Below, piece after piece: positions 11,103 to 51,817 of a stretch of DNA of 51,817 nucleotides. This DNA comes from Ilumatobacteraceae bacterium (GTDB lineage: Bacteria; Actinomycetota; Acidimicrobiia; Acidimicrobiales; Ilumatobacteraceae), in contig JALRBT010000004.1 of NCBI GenBank assembly GCA_023262255.1, positions 1 through 51,817 on the forward strand. Reading direction: 5' to 3'. The first letter of the stretch is position 1. Each line of letters opens with the position of its first letter. The notes under the pieces are model-generated. The model was not told where the DNA came from, ran no database searches, and worked only from the letters and a program-made list of their open reading frames with translations. The position numbers and the translations under genes are program-made.

Positions 11103-11771
11103 GTGGATGGTGCAGCCGCACGAGCCCTTGACGCACAGGTTGCCGGGTGCGCTGCGTCGCACCAGCGGCTACTCGCCGCAATTTCCCAGTTGACCGACCA
11201 CGATTGTCGCACTCCATCACCCCTGTCGGGATGGACGCGTGGTCATGTACTCAACCATCTTGCGCGCAACGCCGACAGCCACTCGCGAATGTTCGAGGCA
11301 GCCAGCCGGGGTGCCGAGGTTGAGTTTTACCGGGGCGGCATGGAAACGAGAGTTGCGGAAATCGAAGCGGGCGCACACCGACTGGCAAGCGACTTGATTG
11401 CCGATGTTCGTGTCTCGATCTATGCGCTCGAGGCGGCATGGGCCGGGGCGACGGCCACGACATGGAGTGGCTTCGGCATCAAGTCGCACTCCGATGGCTC
11501 GCGGGTAGCAATTAGCGACTTGGTGCTCATGCGTTGGTGCGAAGTGGAGGTGCACCATGCCGACCTCAACATTGGCTACACCTGGCACGACTGGGACCCT
11601 CTGTTCGTGCGATACGACCTGGACCGCAAGGTGATGGGCTGGAAGGCCAGGAAGCCGATGGGTCTCACCACGCTGCCTGACACGCTGCAGAAACTTTCGC
11701 CGAACGAACGATTGGCGTGGTTCTACAACCGGGTGACCGTGGACGGCATTCCACCTGCCGACCCTTACTAG
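11103..11771 (+). CDS. Mycothiol-dependent maleylpyruvate isomerase family protein (DinB-like)
   Basis: Protein of 222 residues with the MDMPI N-terminal four-helix domain. The blocks LSGWTRGHVLNHLARNADSH and RWCEVEVHHADLNIGY hold the histidines and glutamate that bind the metal in characterised members. The family uses mycothiol in isomerase or transferase reactions and is an actinobacterial marker. The GTG start at 11103 comes 2 bp after the BtuD-like stop, so the gene is translationally coupled to the B12-riboswitch operon. The reaction here is unknown; the family has many paralogues and only a few with assigned activities. Confidence 0.82.
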   Translation: MDGAAARALDAQVAGCAASHQRLLAAISQLTDHDCRTPSPLSGWTRGHVLNHLARNADSHSRMFEAASRGAEVEFYRGGMETRVAEIEAGAHRLASDLIADVRVSIYALEAAWAGATATTWSGFGIKSHSDGSRVAISDLVLMRWCEVEVHHADLNIGYTWHDWDPLFVRYDLDRKVMGWKARKPMGLTTLPDTLQKLSPNERLAWFYNRVTVDGIPPADPY

Positions 11772-11795
11772 ATGACGTTTGGGAAGGGGAGGTAC

Positions 11796-12242
11796 ATGAA
11801 GCGCTCCGTTCGGGCGATTGCGTCGCTGGCCATCGTGCTCGTCTCATGTGGCGGCGCCGACGACTCGCAAGAAGCTTCGGGCGGGCCACGTGAAGGTGTG
11901 CACAGCCACGGTGGCGAGGATGCGTTCAATGTTTCGCTCGTCACTCGGGACGTCATCGCCGACGTGATCGTGGAACCGACCAACGTCGGCGACGTCATCG
12001 TTCACATGGAATTTGCGCCTCCGGGTGGCAAATTGCAGCAGGTGCTGTCGGTAACCGGAGTTCTTCGTCCGATCGATGATGCGCAGTCGGCGCTGAAACT
12101 TACGTTCGAGAACAGTGGTGTCAACCACTTTCACTTCGACGTCCGTGTGCCCACCCCGGGTGATTGGATGCTCGACTTCGACGCCGTGCTGGCCGATGGC
12201 ACCACGTTGCAGTACGCCACCACCGTGACGTTCGAGTCGTAG
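11796..12242 (+). CDS. Small lipoprotein with YtkA/FixH-like beta-sandwich domain
   Basis: Predicted lipoprotein of 148 residues. Signal MKRSVRAIASLAIVLVSC ends in a lipobox with Cys18. After a short Ser/Gly linker and HSHGGED, residues ~40-148 resemble the YtkA/FixH-like fold (DVIVEPTNVGDVIVHMEF, FHFDVRVPTPGDWMLDFDAVL), often found in copper- and redox-related envelope proteins. The frame opens at 11772, but GGGGAGG ends 5 nt before the ATG at 11796 and decides the start. It is the last gene in the same direction as the B12 operon. No copper-binding motif is clear apart from the HSH stretch, so function is open. Confidence 0.7.
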   Translation: MKRSVRAIASLAIVLVSCGGADDSQEASGGPREGVHSHGGEDAFNVSLVTRDVIADVIVEPTNVGDVIVHMEFAPPGGKLQQVLSVTGVLRPIDDAQSALKLTFENSGVNHFHFDVRVPTPGDWMLDFDAVLADGTTLQYATTVTFES

Positions 12243-12247
12243 CGCGT

Positions 12248-12712
12248 TTACGAACCAAGGTCCAGAAGTACGAGGTGGTGCGGCACGCCGGAGGCTGGCT
12301 CGATGAACTGTTCGCCCTCCACCGAGAACGCGCATCGTTCGTAAAAGTACAGGGCGCTGTCACGTGCCTTGGCCCACACCCATCGTGCACCGAGTGATCG
12401 TGCGTGGGCGATACCGGCATCGATCAGTGCCCGACCAACCCCGGTGTTCTGCATTGCATCACGCACCGCCATTCCGCGAAGCTGCACGGCGAACGGACCC
12501 TGGTCGCCGGGCCAGGGGCGCACCAGCCATGTGGATGTCGCAACGATCGACCGGGAGTCGAGCAGTGCTGCGCCGATGTGCACGGTGGTGGACTCGTGGT
12601 CGCCGTCGTATGCGGCATCATGTGCAGGTGTGCCGCGGCGCAACACGTCGAGGCGAACGGGCAGGGCTTCGTCGAGTGAGATACGGCGAACGATGAAACT
12701 CGATGAAGTCAT
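12248..12712 (-). CDS. GNAT-family N-acetyltransferase
   Basis: Protein of 154 residues with the GNAT fold. QLRGMAVRDAMQNTGVGRALIDAGIAHAR contains the acetyl-CoA pyrophosphate loop (QNTGVGRAL), and LYFYERCAFSVEG is the usual C-terminal Tyr/Phe-rich strand. The start ATG overlaps the stop of the thiamine-transporter ATPase gene as ATGA, so it is the last gene of the TPP-riboswitch operon. Whether it acts on a thiamine-related amine or is simply carried along is unknown. It converges with the lipoprotein gene, with 5 bp between stops. Confidence 0.85.
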   Translation of the reverse strand: MTSSSFIVRRISLDEALPVRLDVLRRGTPAHDAAYDGDHESTTVHIGAALLDSRSIVATSTWLVRPWPGDQGPFAVQLRGMAVRDAMQNTGVGRALIDAGIAHARSLGARWVWAKARDSALYFYERCAFSVEGEQFIEPASGVPHHLVLLDLGS

Positions 12713-43321: not shown

Positions 43322-43411
43322 TTTTTGAAGCGATGTTCAGCTAGTCGTCAAACGAGTGCGCTCCCGAAGCGTGAATGGGAATGTACGACGAGCTGAAAGC
43401 GTTGCTGCTAC

Positions 43412-43456
43412 TGGCGCGCTCGGAGGGACTCGAACCCCCAACCCTCTGATCCGAAG
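43412..43456 (-). repeat. 3' fragment of tRNA-Arg(TCG): attachment-site scar
   Basis: On the minus strand the 45 nt read from the anticodon loop CTTCGGA through TCAGA (3' anticodon stem), the T arm GGGGGTTCGAGTCCCTC, the acceptor strand CGAGCGC, G and encoded CCA. The 5' half is missing: the bases before the loop (GGACTT) cannot pair with TCAGA, so this is not a working tRNA. Tyrosine recombinases commonly use exactly this 3' portion as att core. An intact tRNA-Arg(TCG) gene beginning with GCGCTCG is expected at the far end of the element. Confidence 0.8.
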
Positions 43457-43555
43457 AAGTCCGCATGTGTGTTCACTCGGTGTGGATACGGGTCAACAGG
43501 TCCATGGTTGTTGAGATGTTTGGTTATCAGCGGGTCGATGAGTGTTCGTCAGTGG

Positions 43556-45284: not shown

Positions 45285-46787
45285 TTACGGTTTCCCATGG
45301 CGCGCATTGTCGACGTCCGGTGAGGAGAAAGCGACCACAATTGTCAATGTTGCCATGATCATGGAGGAGAGAACCGTGGTCGCTTGGTATCCGGTAATGA
45401 ATGCTGAGCGGGCGACTTCGGTCAGCATCATGCCGTCGGGAAGGGTCTGCGCTACGCGGAGGGCACCGGCAAGGCCGCCCTTGACGGTCTCAGCCTGGGC
45501 TGCGGTCAACGGTTGGGTCGAGGTTCCCAAGCCCCAGCCATAGACCAAACTAAGCACGGCCCCGAGTAGGGCTATCCCCATCGAGAACCCGAAACGAGCC
45601 GCCGCTCCATTCGTAGCGGAGCCGACTGCCCGGCGCTCGGTGGGATAGCAGTCAACCACGGTATGCGTCATAAGTGCGGGACCGATGGCCATCAGACCGG
45701 TGAGGACGAGCCCGAGGATGAGCAATACTGTGCTCGGCGCGGTTCGATGAGATGCTGCGAATGCAAGCACGGCGAGTCCGACTGAAGACAACGCGAGGCC
45801 GAAGGTAACGGCCCGGCGCGCACCGAGGACAGCTGCTGTACGGCCTGCGACGGCAGAAGCGAGCACCCAGCCGGCGAGAGCAGGGATGAGCAGTAGCCCG
45901 GCGATGAGTGGGGAGTATCCGAGAGCGAGTTGTAGGTACTGGGTTAGGACGAACAGAACTCCGCCCAGGACCAATTGCGCACCAAACACCACGAGAATTG
46001 CAACCCGGAAGCGGTGCTGGCCTAGAACAGCGGAGTCAAAAAGCGGGTGCTGGGCACGGCGCTCCCAATTGATGAGCGTGACGACCGCGACGATCGCTAT
46101 CACGAGCGATATTAGTGCCGTCACAAGTTTGCGCTCTGAAAGCGCTGTCGCAGAATAGACCGCTGCGACACTGGCGATCAAGGTCAGGCCCGCTCCTCGC
46201 GAGTCCATCGGTGTGTCGGCACCGGGCATATTCTTAGGAAGCCGACGAGCACCGATCAGCGCGATCGCGATGAAGGGCACCACGGTGAGAAAGGCGGCTG
46301 GCCACGACCACATGGCCATCGCACCGCCAGCGAGGACGGGGCCGATGAGTGAACCTCCTGCCTGTGTCGCGCCCAGTAGGCCGACGGCGGTTCGGCGGCT
46401 CGTGTCGGGTACTACGTCGAAGGTGAGAGCCAATGCCGCAGGCATGGCGAGGGAGGCCCCCACGCCCGTGATGGCGCGCATTGTGATCAGGAGTGTCACA
46501 TCGCGGGTGAGTGCCGACAGGATTGCGCTCACCAAGAAGATAGTCAGTCCTATGACGAGCACCTTTCGGCGTCCGAACCGGTCAATCCAGGCGCCCGCGA
46601 AGAGCATCACGCCGATACTCACCAACGGCGTGATCTTGTAGACCCACGATAATTGTGCTGTTGATGCACCCAGATCGGTTCCGATGGACGGCAGCGCGAT
46701 GCTCGTCACGCTCACATTCACGTTGACTGCGAGGTACGTGAGGGACAGGCTCAGGAACGCGATCGGTAGGCGCCCGGCCCTTGTCAT
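45285..46787 (-). CDS. MFS drug-resistance-type transporter (DHA2, 14 TM)
   Basis: Membrane exporter of 500 residues of the major facilitator superfamily. The loop motif AGAWIDRFGRRKVLVIG (motif A) and MRAITGVGASLAMPAALAL (motif B) are present, and motif C appears as ATQAGGSLIGPVLAGG. The length and about fourteen hydrophobic segments put it in the EmrB/QacA-like DHA2 group. ATG overlaps the sulfotransferase stop (ATGA). The coupling suggests export of a sulfated product, or of a compound made alongside; this is inference. Confidence 0.9.
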   Translation of the reverse strand: MTRAGRLPIAFLSLSLTYLAVNVNVSVTSIALPSIGTDLGASTAQLSWVYKITPLVSIGVMLFAGAWIDRFGRRKVLVIGLTIFLVSAILSALTRDVTLLITMRAITGVGASLAMPAALALTFDVVPDTSRRTAVGLLGATQAGGSLIGPVLAGGAMAMWSWPAAFLTVVPFIAIALIGARRLPKNMPGADTPMDSRGAGLTLIASVAAVYSATALSERKLVTALISLVIAIVAVVTLINWERRAQHPLFDSAVLGQHRFRVAILVVFGAQLVLGGVLFVLTQYLQLALGYSPLIAGLLLIPALAGWVLASAVAGRTAAVLGARRAVTFGLALSSVGLAVLAFAASHRTAPSTVLLILGLVLTGLMAIGPALMTHTVVDCYPTERRAVGSATNGAAARFGFSMGIALLGAVLSLVYGWGLGTSTQPLTAAQAETVKGGLAGALRVAQTLPDGMMLTEVARSAFITGYQATTVLSSMIMATLTIVVAFSSPDVDNARHGKP

Positions 46788-47818
46788 GAGAATCTCGAGG
46801 CGAGGTACGGGGCAAGCGGATCCATGAGCGAGCGTACGCGTTCGGCGAATGACCTGATGTCACCGCTGCCGGGGTCGAACGCTGAAGCACTCATCGACAT
46901 GTAGTTGCGATCTAAGCCATTGCCGATCAGCGCGTCAGCATTCAGCCCAGTGAACTCGGCGATCGCTCCGAGCGTTCCGTGAGGTTCGCTGACGATTTGC
47001 TCGTAGGTCGTCACGATAGCTCGACCTTGTTTGATGAGTGGGATGCCGTGGTCGGCGACGGGGGAGATCGCGGCGCCCCACTGCTGTGATGCGACCTCCT
47101 CTAGGGGAGCGTCGACAAGTCCCTCCCAGCCGGGAAACAAGTTGAAGTTCCACCAGTGCTTGCCCCACGGCGCGAAGTCGCTGTAGCCGGTGATGTTCAA
47201 CGACGTCGTCAGGCGGTAGGTGAAGAACCATGTCGGATGTCGCCAACCGGCGACCAGACTGCGGATGGCGTCCTGAGGTTCGCGCACCACGAAGACGAAT
47301 TTCGCGTCGGGGAATTCGTTCGCCAGCTCAGGCAAGCGCCAACAGTGGCCGGTGTCCTTGTCAACGATGCGCACCGGCCCGTCCGTATCAGTGGCCCACG
47401 TCGCATCGAGGGGTGGCAGGGTGAATGGCGCAGTCTCGGTCTGCACCGATTCGGCGAACGGACCGACGTCATTGGTGCGGAGTGCTTCGATCAGGTCGTG
47501 GGGAAGATCGAGGTATTGGGCGGGCATGCCCTGACTGGTGCTGCGCAACGCCCACCGCCTCTGCTCCTCCGGTGTCCAGGCACGCTCGCCTCGATAGGCC
47601 TCCGAGAGGTACTCGGATGCGACATGACGTTGGTCAGGGAAGACGCCAGTGACTTCCTGCCCACCGATCCGATGCCACAGGAACCTGCTCTCTCTCCCGA
47701 GCTTGAAGACGCTTGGATCCCGGCAGAGCAGGTTCTGCAGCAGGGTCGTGCCAGAGCGAGGCGATCCGACAACGAAAATGGGCCTTTCCAGCCGATCATG
47801 GTCTCTAGCGTCACCCAT
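46784..47818 (-). CDS. PAPS-dependent sulfotransferase family protein
   Basis: Protein of 344 residues with the P-loop-like 5'-phosphosulfate motif FVVGSPRSGTTLLQNLL near the N terminus and the 3'-phosphate motif KFVFVVREPQDAIRSL in the middle. The family transfers sulfate from PAPS to hydroxyl or amine groups of small molecules or glycans. ATG 47818 overlaps the stop of the upstream sensor gene by 8 bp; a GTG at 47836 is also in frame. It is translationally linked both to a sensor upstream and an exporter downstream. The acceptor is unknown. Confidence 0.87.
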   Translation of the reverse strand: MGDARDHDRLERPIFVVGSPRSGTTLLQNLLCRDPSVFKLGRESRFLWHRIGGQEVTGVFPDQRHVASEYLSEAYRGERAWTPEEQRRWALRSTSQGMPAQYLDLPHDLIEALRTNDVGPFAESVQTETAPFTLPPLDATWATDTDGPVRIVDKDTGHCWRLPELANEFPDAKFVFVVREPQDAIRSLVAGWRHPTWFFTYRLTTSLNITGYSDFAPWGKHWWNFNLFPGWEGLVDAPLEEVASQQWGAAISPVADHGIPLIKQGRAIVTTYEQIVSEPHGTLGAIAEFTGLNADALIGNGLDRNYMSMSASAFDPGSGDIRSFAERVRSLMDPLAPYLASRFS

Positions 47819-49238
47819 CTCGGTCTCGAAGTTCACGCGACCGGGACTTCAACCGCTGAAAATAGTCGCTCTCGGTGATCTCTTGAACTTCTGCCGCGAC
47901 CTTGGCTCGATCGATCTGCACGGACAACTTCTCGACTTGATCACGAAGGCGTCGTTCGCGTTCGATTATCTCGGTGCCCATCGTCTGGAAGGTGCGCGCC
48001 AAGTCGCCGACCTCGTCGGATCTCCGCGAGGCCGCCTCGAGGGACGTCGGGTCGAAAGATCCGGCGGCGAGGTCGCGTGCCGCCCTGGTGATGTCATCGA
48101 CGGGCTTGGTGATCCGTCGACTGACAAAAACACCCAGCGCAAGACCGATGGTCAGGACGACGATGGCGAGCACGGTGAGGTTACGTGCGAGGGTTCGTCC
48201 GGGCGCTTCAAGGTTCGCCTTTGGTACAGCCGAGACCACTACCCAGTCCAGGTCACCTCCCGTGGTTGAGACGCGCACAGACCATGCTTTCTGAGATCCA
48301 TTGGCCCAGGGCGCGCTGATGGTCTGCTCGACCTCAATGCCGGGTTCGGCCGGTGCCTCGGAAAGAATCGCGGCGAAGGCGCGCTTGGCCTCGGGCGTCG
48401 CAGCGTGGTACGCGAGATCGGGTGCACCGCTCGCGATCACATCACCGGATCGATCGATGATCGAGACGAATCCATTGCCGTTGAAACTGATCTCCTCGAA
48501 GTGATTCGCAAGACTGCTGCCGAGTTCTTCAATGCGCCGGTCCACGTCCGCCTCGATGTCGTCTACGTAGACGCCGGTGCCGATCATCCATTCCCAGGGT
48601 TCGTAGAGGAATACGTATCCAACCTTGGGTGATGGCTCCGCGCCATTCAGCCGCTCCCAGCGGTAGTAGGTGTAGCCGCTGCCTTGCTTCAGCACCAGAT
48701 CTCTCGCCTCACGCAGGACATACTTGCCGTCGGGATCCCGCAAGTCGGTGAGATTGCTTCCCTGGAAGCGCTCGTCTGGGTGGGCGATCGCATTGAGATC
48801 GAGGTCGTAGGTGAAGAAGTAGTCGTTGTCCGCGAACCGAACTGTCTTGAGAAGTGTCTTGGCACGGGTCTGAGCCTGTTCCTTCGTGAGCTCACCCGCC
48901 TGTTCGGAGGCCCTCAGTTCGTCAAGTGCGACGACCAAAGGAGCGGCTACGTCTCGAAGGGTCTGCTTGCGTCGCTCGAGGGTCTGCTCTCGATAGCTGT
49001 CGATGCCGTCGAACTCGGCCTGGACGAGGGCTGCGACCGAAGCGTGCACGTTTCCCACCGCTTCGTTTGACTGCGCGTAGAGCTGTACGCGAACCGAATT
49101 GACGGCGAAGGTTGTCGACGCGATTGCGGAAACGAAGAGCAGGACAGCGATCAGCAGCGAGATTCGCCAACTGAGGTTCAGTCGCGAATGGCGACGCGGA
49201 GTTTCCGGCTTTGCCGTCAATACGTCATCCTCGCCCAT
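47811..49238 (-). CDS. Cache-HAMP transmembrane sensor without output domain
   Basis: Membrane protein of 475 residues. TM1 is at ~25-46, an extracellular sensing region of Cache type at ~50-350 (FADNDYFFTYDLDLNAIAHP, LRDPDGKYVLREARDLVLKQGSGYTYYRW, in pieces, and VGYVFLYEPWEWMIGTGVYVDDIEADV), TM2 at 353-373 and HAMP at ~374-425 (SRRITKPVDDITRAARDLAAG). A coiled coil to ~460 ends in a charged tail. There is no kinase, cyclase, methyl-accepting or phosphatase domain, so the signal must pass to a partner. It heads the operon with the sulfotransferase and exporter and is divergent from the MinD-like and RsbW-GNAT genes. Confidence 0.88.
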   Translation of the reverse strand: MGEDDVLTAKPETPRRHSRLNLSWRISLLIAVLLFVSAIASTTFAVNSVRVQLYAQSNEAVGNVHASVAALVQAEFDGIDSYREQTLERRKQTLRDVAAPLVVALDELRASEQAGELTKEQAQTRAKTLLKTVRFADNDYFFTYDLDLNAIAHPDERFQGSNLTDLRDPDGKYVLREARDLVLKQGSGYTYYRWERLNGAEPSPKVGYVFLYEPWEWMIGTGVYVDDIEADVDRRIEELGSSLANHFEEISFNGNGFVSIIDRSGDVIASGAPDLAYHAATPEAKRAFAAILSEAPAEPGIEVEQTISAPWANGSQKAWSVRVSTTGGDLDWVVVSAVPKANLEAPGRTLARNLTVLAIVVLTIGLALGVFVSRRITKPVDDITRAARDLAAGSFDPTSLEAASRRSDEVGDLARTFQTMGTEIIERERRLRDQVEKLSVQIDRAKVAAEVQEITESDYFQRLKSRSRELRDRDG

Positions 49239-49383
49239 TTTGGACTTTCACTTGTCCAACTACGGTTGCGTTGCAGTTAGTTGCGCTAAGAATCCGAGCG
49301 ATCCATGTCATCAGATTTGCTTTGTGGGTCACGAACGCTGCGATGCCGATTATCTCGATACTTTCCACTCACATTAGCAATGG

Positions 49384-49389
49384 TACACT
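49384..49389 (+). promoter_or_regulatory. -10 box of the MinD-like gene (leaderless)
   Basis: TACACT, six nucleotides (TTGTGC), then GTG at 49396. It decides GTG 49396 over the TTG at 49390. Confidence 0.55.
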
Positions 49390-49395
49390 TTGTGC

Positions 49396-50166
49396 GTGGC
49401 AAGAGTGGTCTCCGTTCATTCGTTCCGTGGTGGCACGGGTAAGAGCAATACGACGTCCAACGTCGCTGCAATTCTTGCTGCGCTGGGTCACCGGGTCGGC
49501 GTTATGGATTGCGATATTCAAAGTCCGGGAATCCATGTTCTCTTCGGCTTTGATGAAACGCTCGAGAGAACGTTGAATGACTATCTCTGGGGAACCCGTA
49601 CGATCAAAGAAGTCGCACACGACATCACCGATCGCGTAGCGATGTCCACTCCAGTAGCGAACGGGGGTTCCCTCCATCTCGTTCCATCCAGTATGCGTCC
49701 AGGGGATATTGCTCGAATTCTTCGTGATGGGTATGACGTCGAGGCCCTTAGCGATGGAATGCGCCAGCTTTCGGATGAATTGGATTTGGACTTCCTGTTC
49801 GTCGACACGCATCCAGGTCTCAACGAGGAAACCCTGCTGTCAATCACGATGAGCGATGTTCTGCTCTTAATCCTCAGGCCCGACCGTCAGGACTACCAGG
49901 GCACGGCTGTGACCGTTGACATTGCCCGAAAGCTCGAGGTACCAGCGTTGTTCTTGGTTGCCAACAAAGTTCCCGCGGGACTCGCCAATCTTCGAGAGCA
50001 ATTGGACTCGGCTTATGGGGCCGAGACCATCGCCGTTCTTCCGTTGTCTGAGGACGTCGTCGTAAATGCATCGGGTGGTCTGTTCTCACTCCTGCAGCCA
50101 GCACATCCGTGGTCGGAGCAGGTTCGCGGAATTGCTGACCGTCTTCATCGAGAGGCACGAGCGTGA
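49396..50166 (+). CDS. MinD/ParA-family P-loop ATPase
   Basis: Cytoplasmic ATPase of 256 residues. The deviant Walker A box is HSFRGGTGKSNTTSN, with arginine where MinD/ParA have the signature lysine. VGVMDCDIQSPGIHVLF is the switch I/A' region and LDFLFVDTHPGLNEETLL the Walker B region; RPDRQDYQGTAVTVDIA and LFLVANKVP follow. The usual C-terminal membrane helix of MinD is absent. Such proteins dimerise on ATP and position or organise partners. GTGA overlap with the next gene shows tight coupling, and the divergent Cache-HAMP protein is the likely membrane partner (inference). Confidence 0.88.
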   Translation: MARVVSVHSFRGGTGKSNTTSNVAAILAALGHRVGVMDCDIQSPGIHVLFGFDETLERTLNDYLWGTRTIKEVAHDITDRVAMSTPVANGGSLHLVPSSMRPGDIARILRDGYDVEALSDGMRQLSDELDLDFLFVDTHPGLNEETLLSITMSDVLLLILRPDRQDYQGTAVTVDIARKLEVPALFLVANKVPAGLANLREQLDSAYGAETIAVLPLSEDVVVNASGGLFSLLQPAHPWSEQVRGIADRLHREARA

Positions 50167-51683
50167 GCACGTTGGTCTTGAAGATGTCACTGACCCACGC
50201 GTCGACGCTCGGTGTCGCTGCCCGGGCGGTCGCCGACACTGTTGGAGCACTAGGTCTCGGCCCAGCAGAGCGAACCCACCTTGAGGCACTCATGAGTGAG
50301 GCTCTCACAGCGGTCATAGCCGACTCCTTCGACGGCGCCGATGTGATTGATGTGGACGTCGCCGTGAATCACGAACCGGGAAGCGTCAACATTGTGCTCC
50401 AGCAGCGCGGCGCTCCCTCAACGTATGTCAGCGGCGAGTTGCCCATCCGACTGGAGACCTTGCTGAGCCTGGGATACGCCGACTCCATAACATTTTCAAG
50501 CGACGGATTGAGGGGCAGCGAGCTTCAGATTACTCGGGAGGTAATCACACGTACTCTTAAGGACGATCCTTCGTTCGTGGACGATGCGGCCAAGGACGAC
50601 GCAGCAGACCTTTCCATTGACGACGAAGACGTAGTCATCCGTCCGATCACTCGTGAAGATGTCGTCGAGGTCGCCCGCTTGTACTTCCGTACTTACGGCT
50701 ACACGAAGATTGGTGCGAGCTGGCTGTATGAACCCGAGGTCTTCCAGCACAAGATCGACGCCCGGCTCCATGAGGGTTATGTCGCGGTCCTGCCCTCAGG
50801 TCGCATTGTGGGCCACGTCGGCATCGGACGGCCCACTGCGGATTCGGAGTCGGCCTCGGGCGGACCAGCAGCAGTGGATCCGGCGTTCCGCAAGCGTGGG
50901 ATCGTCACCCGCCTCGACGAGGTCTTCTATCCGCACATCGTCGGCCTGGGTCTGCGCGGACTCTACGCGGAGGGAGTGACGGCACATCCGGCCAGCCAGG
51001 CCGCCATCCGCAGGGTTGGGCTTCGCGAGACCGGGCTCGTGCTCGGTCGGCAGCCATCCGACGTGGAGTTCCTTGGGTTTGACGGACCCAAGGGCTTTCG
51101 TCGCGCCGTCATGGTCCTCTACCGATCTTTCGGTGAATCGGTCGTGGAGTCGGCATACGTGCCCGCTCGTTATCACGACATCGCCGCTCGAATCTACGGA
51201 GAGGTCGGACTCCAGCGGACCATGCATTCCGATGCTGGTCGTCCTCCTGCAGACCTGACCGCGCAGTCCCAATTCGCCACTGAACTACTGTCCGCGACCA
51301 AGCACGCCCAGATTCGCGTAATCGACTACGGGCAGGACTTCGTCGAGGCCCTGCAGCGGCTCATCGTCCGCTTTGAAAGCGAACGGTTCGAGGCCATCAC
51401 TGTGCACCTCCCACTGATGAACTCCCTCACCGCCCACTTCGGCGCAGGTCTGGGGGAGCTCGGCTTATCCTTCAATGCGATCTTTCCAGAGCAGGATCGT
51501 GGAGACGAGCTCGTTCTGGGGGTCAACCTGTCCGAGCAGGATCGTGGGACCATTCATGTGGCTTCAGATTTTGGTCAGGAACTTCTCGACTACGTCATTG
51601 CCGACCGCGATCGGGTGACGGCAGCACTTCAGTCGCGGGCGAGGTCGCGGGCATCCATGGCACGCATCCTTGACGCATTGTGA
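50163..51683 (+). CDS. Fusion of degenerate RsbW-like domain and GNAT acetyltransferase
   Basis: Protein of 506 residues. Residues ~1-130 follow the anti-sigma RsbW/HATPase pattern (LEALMSEALTAVIADSF for the N box, SDGLRGSELQITRE for the end), but the N-box asparagine and the DxGxP motif (here QQRGAPS) are lost, so ATP binding is doubtful. An acidic linker (~135-155, DDAAKDDAADLSIDDED) leads to a GNAT domain at ~157-300 with acetyl-CoA loop VDPAFRKRGIVTRLDEV and HPASQAAIRRVG. The last ~200 residues form a further alpha/beta domain not recognised. It is coupled to the MinD-like gene by GTGA. Its role may be regulatory acetylation or ligand sensing. Confidence 0.82.
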   Translation: MSTLVLKMSLTHASTLGVAARAVADTVGALGLGPAERTHLEALMSEALTAVIADSFDGADVIDVDVAVNHEPGSVNIVLQQRGAPSTYVSGELPIRLETLLSLGYADSITFSSDGLRGSELQITREVITRTLKDDPSFVDDAAKDDAADLSIDDEDVVIRPITREDVVEVARLYFRTYGYTKIGASWLYEPEVFQHKIDARLHEGYVAVLPSGRIVGHVGIGRPTADSESASGGPAAVDPAFRKRGIVTRLDEVFYPHIVGLGLRGLYAEGVTAHPASQAAIRRVGLRETGLVLGRQPSDVEFLGFDGPKGFRRAVMVLYRSFGESVVESAYVPARYHDIAARIYGEVGLQRTMHSDAGRPPADLTAQSQFATELLSATKHAQIRVIDYGQDFVEALQRLIVRFESERFEAITVHLPLMNSLTAHFGAGLGELGLSFNAIFPEQDRGDELVLGVNLSEQDRGTIHVASDFGQELLDYVIADRDRVTAALQSRARSRASMARILDAL

Positions 51684-51757
51684 AGCCAGTGCCCTCCGGC
51701 GACAAGCGTTCGTAGTCGAGAACCACTGATGGTGTCGGCATCTCGGGGAGTCGTGTG

Positions 51758-51817
51758 ATGTCTGCAACCACCGGAGCCCTTCGTCGTCATCGAGCCGCAC
51801 CGATCGTTGCGGTGGTG
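51758..51817 (+). CDS. Start of an unidentified gene (cut by window end)
   Basis: ATG at 51758, about 8 nt after GGGGAG, opens a frame that reads MSATTGALRRHRAAPIVAVV and runs off the window. It would follow the RsbW-GNAT gene by 74 bp in the same direction. Twenty residues are too few to name a family. Confidence 0.4.
   Translation, partial: MSATTGALRRHRAAPIVAVV

Follow-up and report, generated by a model that had tools for sequence, protein, structure and literature searches.

A C-terminal tail common to diverse sensors and its pairing with a MinD-like RGGTGKS ATPase: a candidate receptor-to-ATPase signalling module in an Ilumatobacteraceae bacterium

ATPases of the ParA/MinD family position cargo, and short basic peptides drive them, according to two papers (PMC7993993, PMC9178275); the first describes a short basic N-terminal peptide common to the activators of these ATPases. 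The second defines the signature lysine of the family in KGGxxK[S/T], gives the Walker A motif of PpfA as KGGVGKT and names relatives in which the signature lysine is altered, namely BcsQ (RGGVGTT) and McdA (SGGQGKT). PpfA–TlpT of Rhodobacter and the ParA/MinD systems that employ ParB, MinE or PomX all join an ATPase to a sensory or structural protein via a short terminal peptide. A second point of comparison is the icfG cluster of Synechocystis (slr1856–slr1861). PMC12329169 lists its genes and describes its part in carbon regulation; the excerpts available name no MinD-like ATPase there. Here, we analyze a locus in which an ATPase and a sensory protein are likewise found together. It lies in contig JALRBT010000004.1 of an Ilumatobacteraceae bacterium (assembly GCA_023262255.1), and the entire contig of 51,817 bases is referred to below as the window. 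The host draft genome comprises 1.65 Mb in 212 contigs, is 82% complete and is probably metagenome-assembled. The locus encodes a Cache-HAMP membrane sensor ending in a conserved tail, a MinD-like ATPase with the Walker A motif RGGTGKS and a fusion of RsbW-fold and GNAT domains. We propose, with a probability of roughly 55%, that it represents a receptor-to-ATPase signalling module, in which the tail would dock on the ATPase and control it. Unlike the peptides of the PpfA–TlpT and ParA/MinD systems, this tail is C-terminal, has an EITESDYF core and is found on many single receptors, and the partner ATPase has arginine for the signature lysine.

A sequence-only reading had placed a Cache-HAMP sensor, a MinD-like ATPase and an RsbW-GNAT fusion at 47811–51683, and both the gene positions and the domains were confirmed. 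The 475-aa sensor is encoded at 47811–49238 on the minus strand, and its tail (a coil, EITESDYFQRL and a basic end, as detected by the tail profiles A4 and A8) occupies 47817–47999 of that strand. The ATPase gene is at 49396–50166 on the plus strand; its frame is open from a TTG at 49390, and the GTG at 49396 suits the relatives. Taking this GTG as the start, the 157 bp first given as the distance between the sensor and ATPase genes is correct. The fusion gene (50163–51683, plus strand) overlaps the ATPase gene by 4 bp and encodes 506 aa, consisting of a degenerate SpoIIAB/RsbW-fold domain (approximately residues 1–130), a GNAT domain (155–329) and a tentatively half-GNAT-like C-terminal domain with a long helix (330–506).

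Pfam recognizes dCache_2 (7e-42), sCache_2 (2e-36) and HAMP (2e-11) in the sensor. Behind the HAMP domain, no kinase or methyl-accepting chemotaxis protein output domain scored above cut-off, in agreement with the earlier claim that the sensor has none. HAMP sensors without a recognizable ending are hard to assign an output. The sensor is 74% identical to its counterpart in stretch L017 (L numbers denote the DNA stretches compared and G numbers genomes) and 42% identical to that in L086 over residues 48–474. Because both of those sensors also end at the tail, the protein looks complete, and on the same grounds we rejected the idea that a SiaA-like phosphatase half has gone missing from it (residues 328–457 match the SiaA model at 50 bits; cut-off 700). 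The top NCBIfam models for the sensor, both far under cut-off, are MctS and CtpM, which we take to be sensors of small organic acids; a small organic molecule is thus a reasonable guess for the ligand. When the sensors of related loci were aligned, their extracytoplasmic parts differed, while the final ~60 residues were common to all: a coil, followed by EI(T/V)xSD(Y/F)FxxL.

The combination of this tail with the ATPase spans Cyanobacteriota, Deinococcota and the host's phylum, and it probably reaches Pseudomonadota (Rhizobium). Profile A8 was built with rows from cyanobacterial, Deinococcus and Rhizobium tails only, the short CHASE2 tail of L077 being excluded. Among 298 genomes of the host's order, A8 matched four at E<=1e-4, and they were the identical four (G000, G021, G211 and G334) that the window ATPase matched at E<=1e-40. 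Eight of 396 phylum genomes gave the ATPase (E<=1e-50), and nine gave the A4 tail, i.e., those eight plus G518, a count that is partly circular, as 8 of the 14 rows of A4 came from the genomes afterwards searched. Two further ATPase-bearing genomes, G034 and G052, are unmatched in both sets, being seemingly outside those draws, to judge by the listings. In 72,556 plasmid records, the ATPase matched 13 at E<=1e-12 (eight at E<=1e-74 and five from Streptomyces near 1e-34), and a single actinobacterial tail (that of L046) matched six at E<=0.01, all within the eight. If the genomes were independent, the chance of such coincidences would be ~3e-9 for the order, ~6e-16 for the phylum and ~1e-25 for the plasmids, values that kinship among genomes makes too small. 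In one genome, G362, the ATPase gave a single match, and two of the four tail genes there lie far from it. On one of the two remaining plasmids of the eight, from Rhizobium jaguaris, a regex search found a more diverged tail gene that overlaps the ATPase gene by 4 bp.

The two genes are also close to one another. We compared 23 ATPase loci: the window, L017, 12 genome stretches and nine of the 13 ATPase plasmid records (H10–H13 were excluded); L078 and L079 had been fetched via tail matches, but they are also the ATPase matches H5 and H2. A tail gene was located within 4.2 kb of the ATPase gene in 18 of the 23, compared with none of 12 control stretches (3–18 kb long) that had been fetched for other reasons; L070, L071 and L072, fetched for their tails, were not counted as controls. 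Thirteen of the 18 were detected by A8 without having contributed rows to it, and three of the remaining five (L032, L078 and L079) were detected by A4 without being among its rows. The tail gene lies directly 5' of the ATPase gene in L046 and L047, and the window, L031 and L086 have the two as a divergent pair. The sequence-only reading's link from the HAMP tail to the ATPase therefore has strong comparative support, from co-occurrence and adjacency.

Does the fusion belong to this unit? The ATPase, the fusion and a tail-bearing sensor occur together at the window, L017, L020 and L022, such that the anticipated recurrence of the three genes in other genomes was indeed found. Only the window and L017 are known to combine the ATPase and the fusion with a Cache-HAMP sensor; the sensors of L020 and L022 bear this tail as well, but belong to a different HAMP type. 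L017 holds the four-gene cluster in a different order, with 74–87% protein identity to the window. The trio was nevertheless rejected as the unit, given that L030, L031, L045–L050 and L086 have the tail and the ATPase without the fusion. What is conserved is the tail protein with the ATPase, often accompanied by a domain that we call F (see below); the fusion is optional. As a side observation, L017 is labelled as a metagenome-assembled genome of Candidatus Nanopelagicales, which may reflect either gene transfer or mis-binning.

The ATPase itself departs from the described families. Its Walker A region reads HSFRGGTGKS, and its Pfam matches are ParA (4e-16), AAA_31 (1e-13) and CbiA (6e-13). 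Among solved proteins, archaeal MinD-1 and FlhG-type proteins come nearest to it in sequence; phmmer aligned it to the archaeal MinD 1hyq at 2e-14. It falls under every curated NCBIfam cut-off shown: the best curated models are the AAA_KGGVGR domain (NF047398; 71.5 bits, cut-off 90) and the archaeal MinD model TIGR01969 (68 bits, cut-off 201.75), and the MinD model TIGR01968 gives 36 bits (cut-off 212.9). The KGGVGR family, judging by its name, alters the other lysine, unlike the window ATPase. BcsQ and McdA resemble the window ATPase in being without the signature lysine; BcsQ differs, as its model gives the window ATPase just 30 bits, against a cut-off of 157.85, and the window ATPase retains the P-loop lysine. 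A regex that required GTGKS picked out 22 ATPases, of which 21 have arginine at the signature position, one (the second Deinococcus copy) has methionine and none has lysine; arginine is also present in L086 (GTGKT) and in the Streptomyces relative L038, which were read separately. In the window, RGGTGKS replaces the usual KGG form of Walker A, as had been claimed. The P-loop lysine and Ser/Thr are kept, and the motifs DxDxxSPG and DTHPG hardly vary, so the protein probably binds and hydrolyzes ATP. By eye, no obvious MinD-like C-terminal amphipathic helix was present in four aligned ATPase ends. We also considered an anti-phage role, for which the PADLOC models gave only two generic-looking, MinD-like matches to the ATPase, both to PDC-M28B models (8e-10 over residues 5–99, and 1.5e-6), and none to the sensor or the fusion. 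The more diverged second ATPase copy mentioned above (MRGTGKS) is found in Deinococcus sp. KNUC1210 (L036:10398-11159); it directly follows a tail gene and precedes a gene that, by eye, resembles MFS or ADP-ATP-translocase genes.

The proteins that carry the tail are varied. Cache-HAMP carriers occur in the window and L086 (by Pfam) and in L017 (by similarity); tails on other HAMP sensors are found in L020, L022 and L045 (Pfam) and in L030 and L031 (similarity). In L046 the tail is on a HisKA-receiver-HAMP protein, in L049 (Pfam) and L048, L050 and L070 (similarity) on receiver proteins, and in L033 on a small soluble protein. It also ends proteins annotated as GAF (L076) and CHASE2 (L077), which are outside the 23 carriers counted. 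In all 23, the tail lies 0–69 residues from the C-terminus, and the segment following its YF is net positive in 21 and neutral in two. The conserved core is acidic and aromatic (E-I-T-E-S-D-Y-F). In two Nostoc proteins the motif occurs twice in tandem, which fits the expectation for a linear docking motif. A search of the tail against solved structures returned just three chance-like rows (best E 0.04). Independently of these observations, the gene directly 3' of the tail sensor gene in two stretches (L020:11895-13358 and L022:1713-3179) encodes an MFS-like protein whose N-terminus is considerably extended (DPLDxLxGxxRPxRNIDNAL).

These features bear on the principal rival to our proposal, which reverses the direction of action: the ATPase would space or cluster the tail-bearing sensors, as PpfA does TlpT clusters, and the tail would be an ATPase-activating peptide. 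The precedent of cargo placement driven by short basic peptides, the net positive charge after YF and the existence of a soluble carrier all favor it. Yet the tail is C-terminal rather than N-terminal, its core is acidic and aromatic, input domains are diverse among the many carriers that are single membrane receptors, and partner-switching or effector genes are found beside ATPase relatives. On balance, we deem this positioning role unlikely, while regarding it as the main rival. Because the basic end is present in 21 of 23 carriers but at the C-terminus, the tail may, by analogy, work like the ParA/MinD activator peptides without being one of them.

The fusion protein was examined through its AlphaFold model (mean pLDDT 79, pTM 0.81; block pLDDT of 54–80 in the RsbW-fold part). 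Residues 1–126 align to SpoIIAB (1thn_A; VIA Z 15.6, root-mean-square deviation 2.7, 123 residues aligned), and residues 156–332 align to the GNAT 5isv_B (VIA Z 12.7, deviation 3.9, 155 aligned). Pfam reports Acetyltransf_3 above cut-off (1e-5), and all 50 listed Foldseek rows are GNATs. The ATP-site motifs of RsbW and SpoIIAB are named the N-box and G1. The N-box Asn and His are missing in all eight fusion homologues aligned, and the D-x-G-x-P box is present in six of them, having been lost in the window and L017; this alignment (A6) was made without L019 and L024, which have a stop codon in the match, and without L011–L016 and the second place in G034, which are GNAT-range matches. Hence, the first 130 residues have the fold of the SpoIIAB/RsbW anti-sigma kinases, but unlike those kinases, the fusion is without the N-box residues, has a broken G1 box and is joined to a GNAT; the description of this domain as a degenerate RsbW holds. 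The C-terminal domain had been called unrecognized, and no firm assignment emerged. Modelled alone, the last 181 residues (pLDDT 88) appear weakly half-GNAT-like with a long helix. One Foldseek row reached E<=0.001, VIA Z values were ~7–8, and the best VIA rows (the N-terminal domains of NUDT7 and NUDT6, and GNATs) were tied within 1 Z near 8; because of this tie, the half-GNAT label is tentative. The fusion is present at five of the 23 ATPase loci, always directly 3' of the ATPase gene. A tblastn search of plasmids with the fusion found nothing.

A number of observations weigh against the module proposed here, beyond the circularity and kinship already mentioned. G518 has a tail protein, and the ATPase was not found there at E<=1e-15. 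Conversely, the ATPase occurs without the tail in L037 and L038, and on the 9.6-kb contig of L021; in L034 and L035, the tail is found only elsewhere on the ATPase plasmid. No tail was found in the plasmid of Nostoc sp. UHCC 0870, the last of the eight with the ATPase at E<=1e-74, and the L046 tail matched none of H10–H13, four more Streptomyces plasmids with a diverged ATPase that are known only as search matches. The Rhizobium tail, a regex finding with a weak match (E 2e-3, 26%), is yet a row of both profiles. The fusion is encoded without the ATPase, tail or F in L019, L023, L024 and L025, which is the counter-case to the trio as a unit, and in G016 (77% complete) it is on a 3-kb contig, with no ATPase found at E<=1e-15. 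The fusion family therefore does not need the ATPase, and it has a separate role. The acetyl-CoA motif of GNATs is [QR]xxGx[GA]; the window (RKRGIV) and L017 (RQRNIA) have this motif A in imperfect form, and it reads RRRGIA in L022 and L021. Finally, STAS domains, which belong to the partner-switching systems considered below, were not found at E<=0.001 in the host genome, which is 82% complete.

The sequence-only reading had called for attention to SpoIIE phosphatases and STAS proteins, and such genes, along with RsbW-type genes, do occur in varying combinations near ATPase relatives; few of these partners were found in the host genome. In Nostoc NIES-3756, STAS and GlgX genes are beside the ATPase relative, and the CHASE2-tail gene follows STAS, ATP-binding and PP2C genes. 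Deinococcus has STAS, GlgX and SpoIIE genes in this position, Streptomyces adds an ATP-binding (RsbW-type) protein to the same three, and Rhizobium has STAS-, RsbW- and PP2C-like genes (partly by eye; the STAS and HATPase_c matches are weak). In Nostoc, Deinococcus and Streptomyces, the proximity of ATPase relatives to AGE, STAS and GlgX genes is reminiscent of icfG-type clusters, unlike the window, which has no STAS, PP2C or GlgX recognized nearby. Together with the SpoIIAB/RsbW fold of the fusion (Z 15.6), these neighbors suggest another explanation, with partner switching as the actual output: the RsbW-fold domain would work as an anti-sigma or STAS-binding switch that receives its input from a SpoIIE phosphatase, and the ATPase and the sensor would be mere neighbors. 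The loss of the ATP-site motifs speaks against such a switch, as does the host genome: in addition to the failure to find STAS there, the SpoIIE search gave one weak match (25.6 bits, cut-off 25), and the RsbW-type search gave one match under cut-off. No STAS, PP2C, GlgX or RsbW neighbors were recognized beside the ATPase in the window (Pfam, open reading frames of 38.3–51.7 kb) or in L017 (listing of open reading frames). Further, L046–L050 have the tail and the ATPase together without partner-switching genes recognized by eye. We consider this explanation improbable.

The F domain, with the motif (F/L)SREEVLxG, adjoins the ATPase in 11 of the 23 loci and has no Pfam or NCBIfam name. F genes beside the ATPase include L020:8271-8786, L030:8753-9289, L032:5385-5837 and L046:2534-3004. 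The domain is fused to a Trp/Tyr-permease-like part in L048 and to a weak amino-acid-transporter match in L046. It was found in six of the 396 phylum genomes, all with the ATPase; because all six supplied profile rows, this count shows only that no further F genes turned up. The host genome gave no F match at E<=1e-4; either its set is without F, or the F gene is past the contig end.

The contig ends at 51817, 134 bases past the fusion gene. Its last stretch, 51690–51817, which begins 7 bases past the fusion stop, repeats the start region of a transporter gene that has its native place at another locus (G000:C149, 97%; G003:C20). This match may stem from a junction, from strain variation or from a branch in the assembly; by eye, the matched gene is of EamA/DMT type. 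To the left, the sensor gene is overlapped by 26 bp by a sulfotransferase gene (46784–47836, minus strand; Pfam Sulfotransfer_3, 3e-24), an overlap retained in L017, where the sulfotransferase (11578–12630) is 75% identical to that of the window. The sulfotransferase gene in turn overlaps by 4 bp a gene for an efflux-type transporter of the major facilitator superfamily (MFS; 45285–46787, minus strand). These two genes and the sensor gene run leftward, and the ATPase and fusion genes run rightward. The MFS gene is possibly the last of the sensor operon; no counterpart was found beside the cluster in L017. Distant from the locus, two neighboring genes at 1–2802 have, by eye, starts resembling PstS-type phosphate-binding proteins.

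The set had also been assigned to a probable mobile element. In partial support, an att-like fragment at 43411–43457 (minus strand) is the 3' end of tRNA-Arg(TCG), identical over 46 bases (100%) to tRNA-Arg in G003. The window has no whole tRNA, just this fragment, and its RNA fold showed no stable structure. The congeners G004 and G007 have a whole tRNA-Arg in the vicinity of the same NDH/SDR genes, plus an additional fragment of its 3' end, and in G003 the whole tRNA-Arg and a fragment are 7 kb apart on another contig. Because of the whole tRNA-Arg and the repeated 3'-end fragments in congeners, this locus is an integration hotspot, with variable cargo. Among the main open reading frames of 38.3–51.7 kb, Pfam detected no integrase or transposase. 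The DNA of the cluster was matched in none of 12 congeners, nor was the fusion found in any of them, four giving GNAT-range matches only. The tRNA fragment, the variable cargo, the absence of the cluster from the 12 congeners and the presence of sulfotransferase and MFS genes in the same run would be expected if unrelated genes simply shared a tRNA-Arg-associated island without joint function. That notion is already weakened by recurrence: the sensor, ATPase and fusion reappear elsewhere in another order and with other flanks, and the tail and ATPase co-occur across phyla. We judge it very improbable.

How might a receptor-to-ATPase module of the kind that we favor operate? Extrapolating from the protein families, the Cache domain would bind a small periplasmic ligand, and the HAMP domain would relay the change. 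The tail (the coil, EITESDYFxxL and the basic end) would be a portable docking tag for the RGGTGKS ATPase, and its binding would set the nucleotide state or the position of that enzyme. The ATPase could serve as a shared receiver for several sensors (compare G362, with one ATPase and four tail genes). In the host lineage, the translationally coupled RsbW-fold/GNAT protein would be the likely effector; its anti-sigma fold, without ATP-binding motifs, would act as a binding platform and not as a kinase, and the GNAT domain would acetylate a target. A broader version, which we put forward tentatively and rate at somewhat less than even odds, is that many kinds of sensor connect, through one interchangeable C-terminal docking tail, to a single hub, the RGGTGKS MinD-like ATPase, with lineage-specific outputs. 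In that event, periplasmic, GAF, CHASE2, receiver and histidine-kinase-like sensors would report to a positioning-type ATPase instead of a kinase, a cyclase or a chemotaxis array, and the outputs would comprise the RsbW-fold/GNAT fusion, F-domain permease-like proteins and partner switching.

We found no published description of a tail/ATPase module in the open text of PMC, a scope outside which preprints and most subscription papers fall. The pairing suggests an undescribed route by which receptors report to the cell. If the tail is an output tag for one ATPase family, then a partner could be predicted, across several phyla, for the HAMP sensors, receiver proteins and GAF proteins that bear it. 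The tail is a short peptide and the ATPase a soluble enzyme, and both would be directly testable in vitro. If the proposal is true, the remit of ParA/MinD ATPases would extend from the placement of cargo to the reception of signals.

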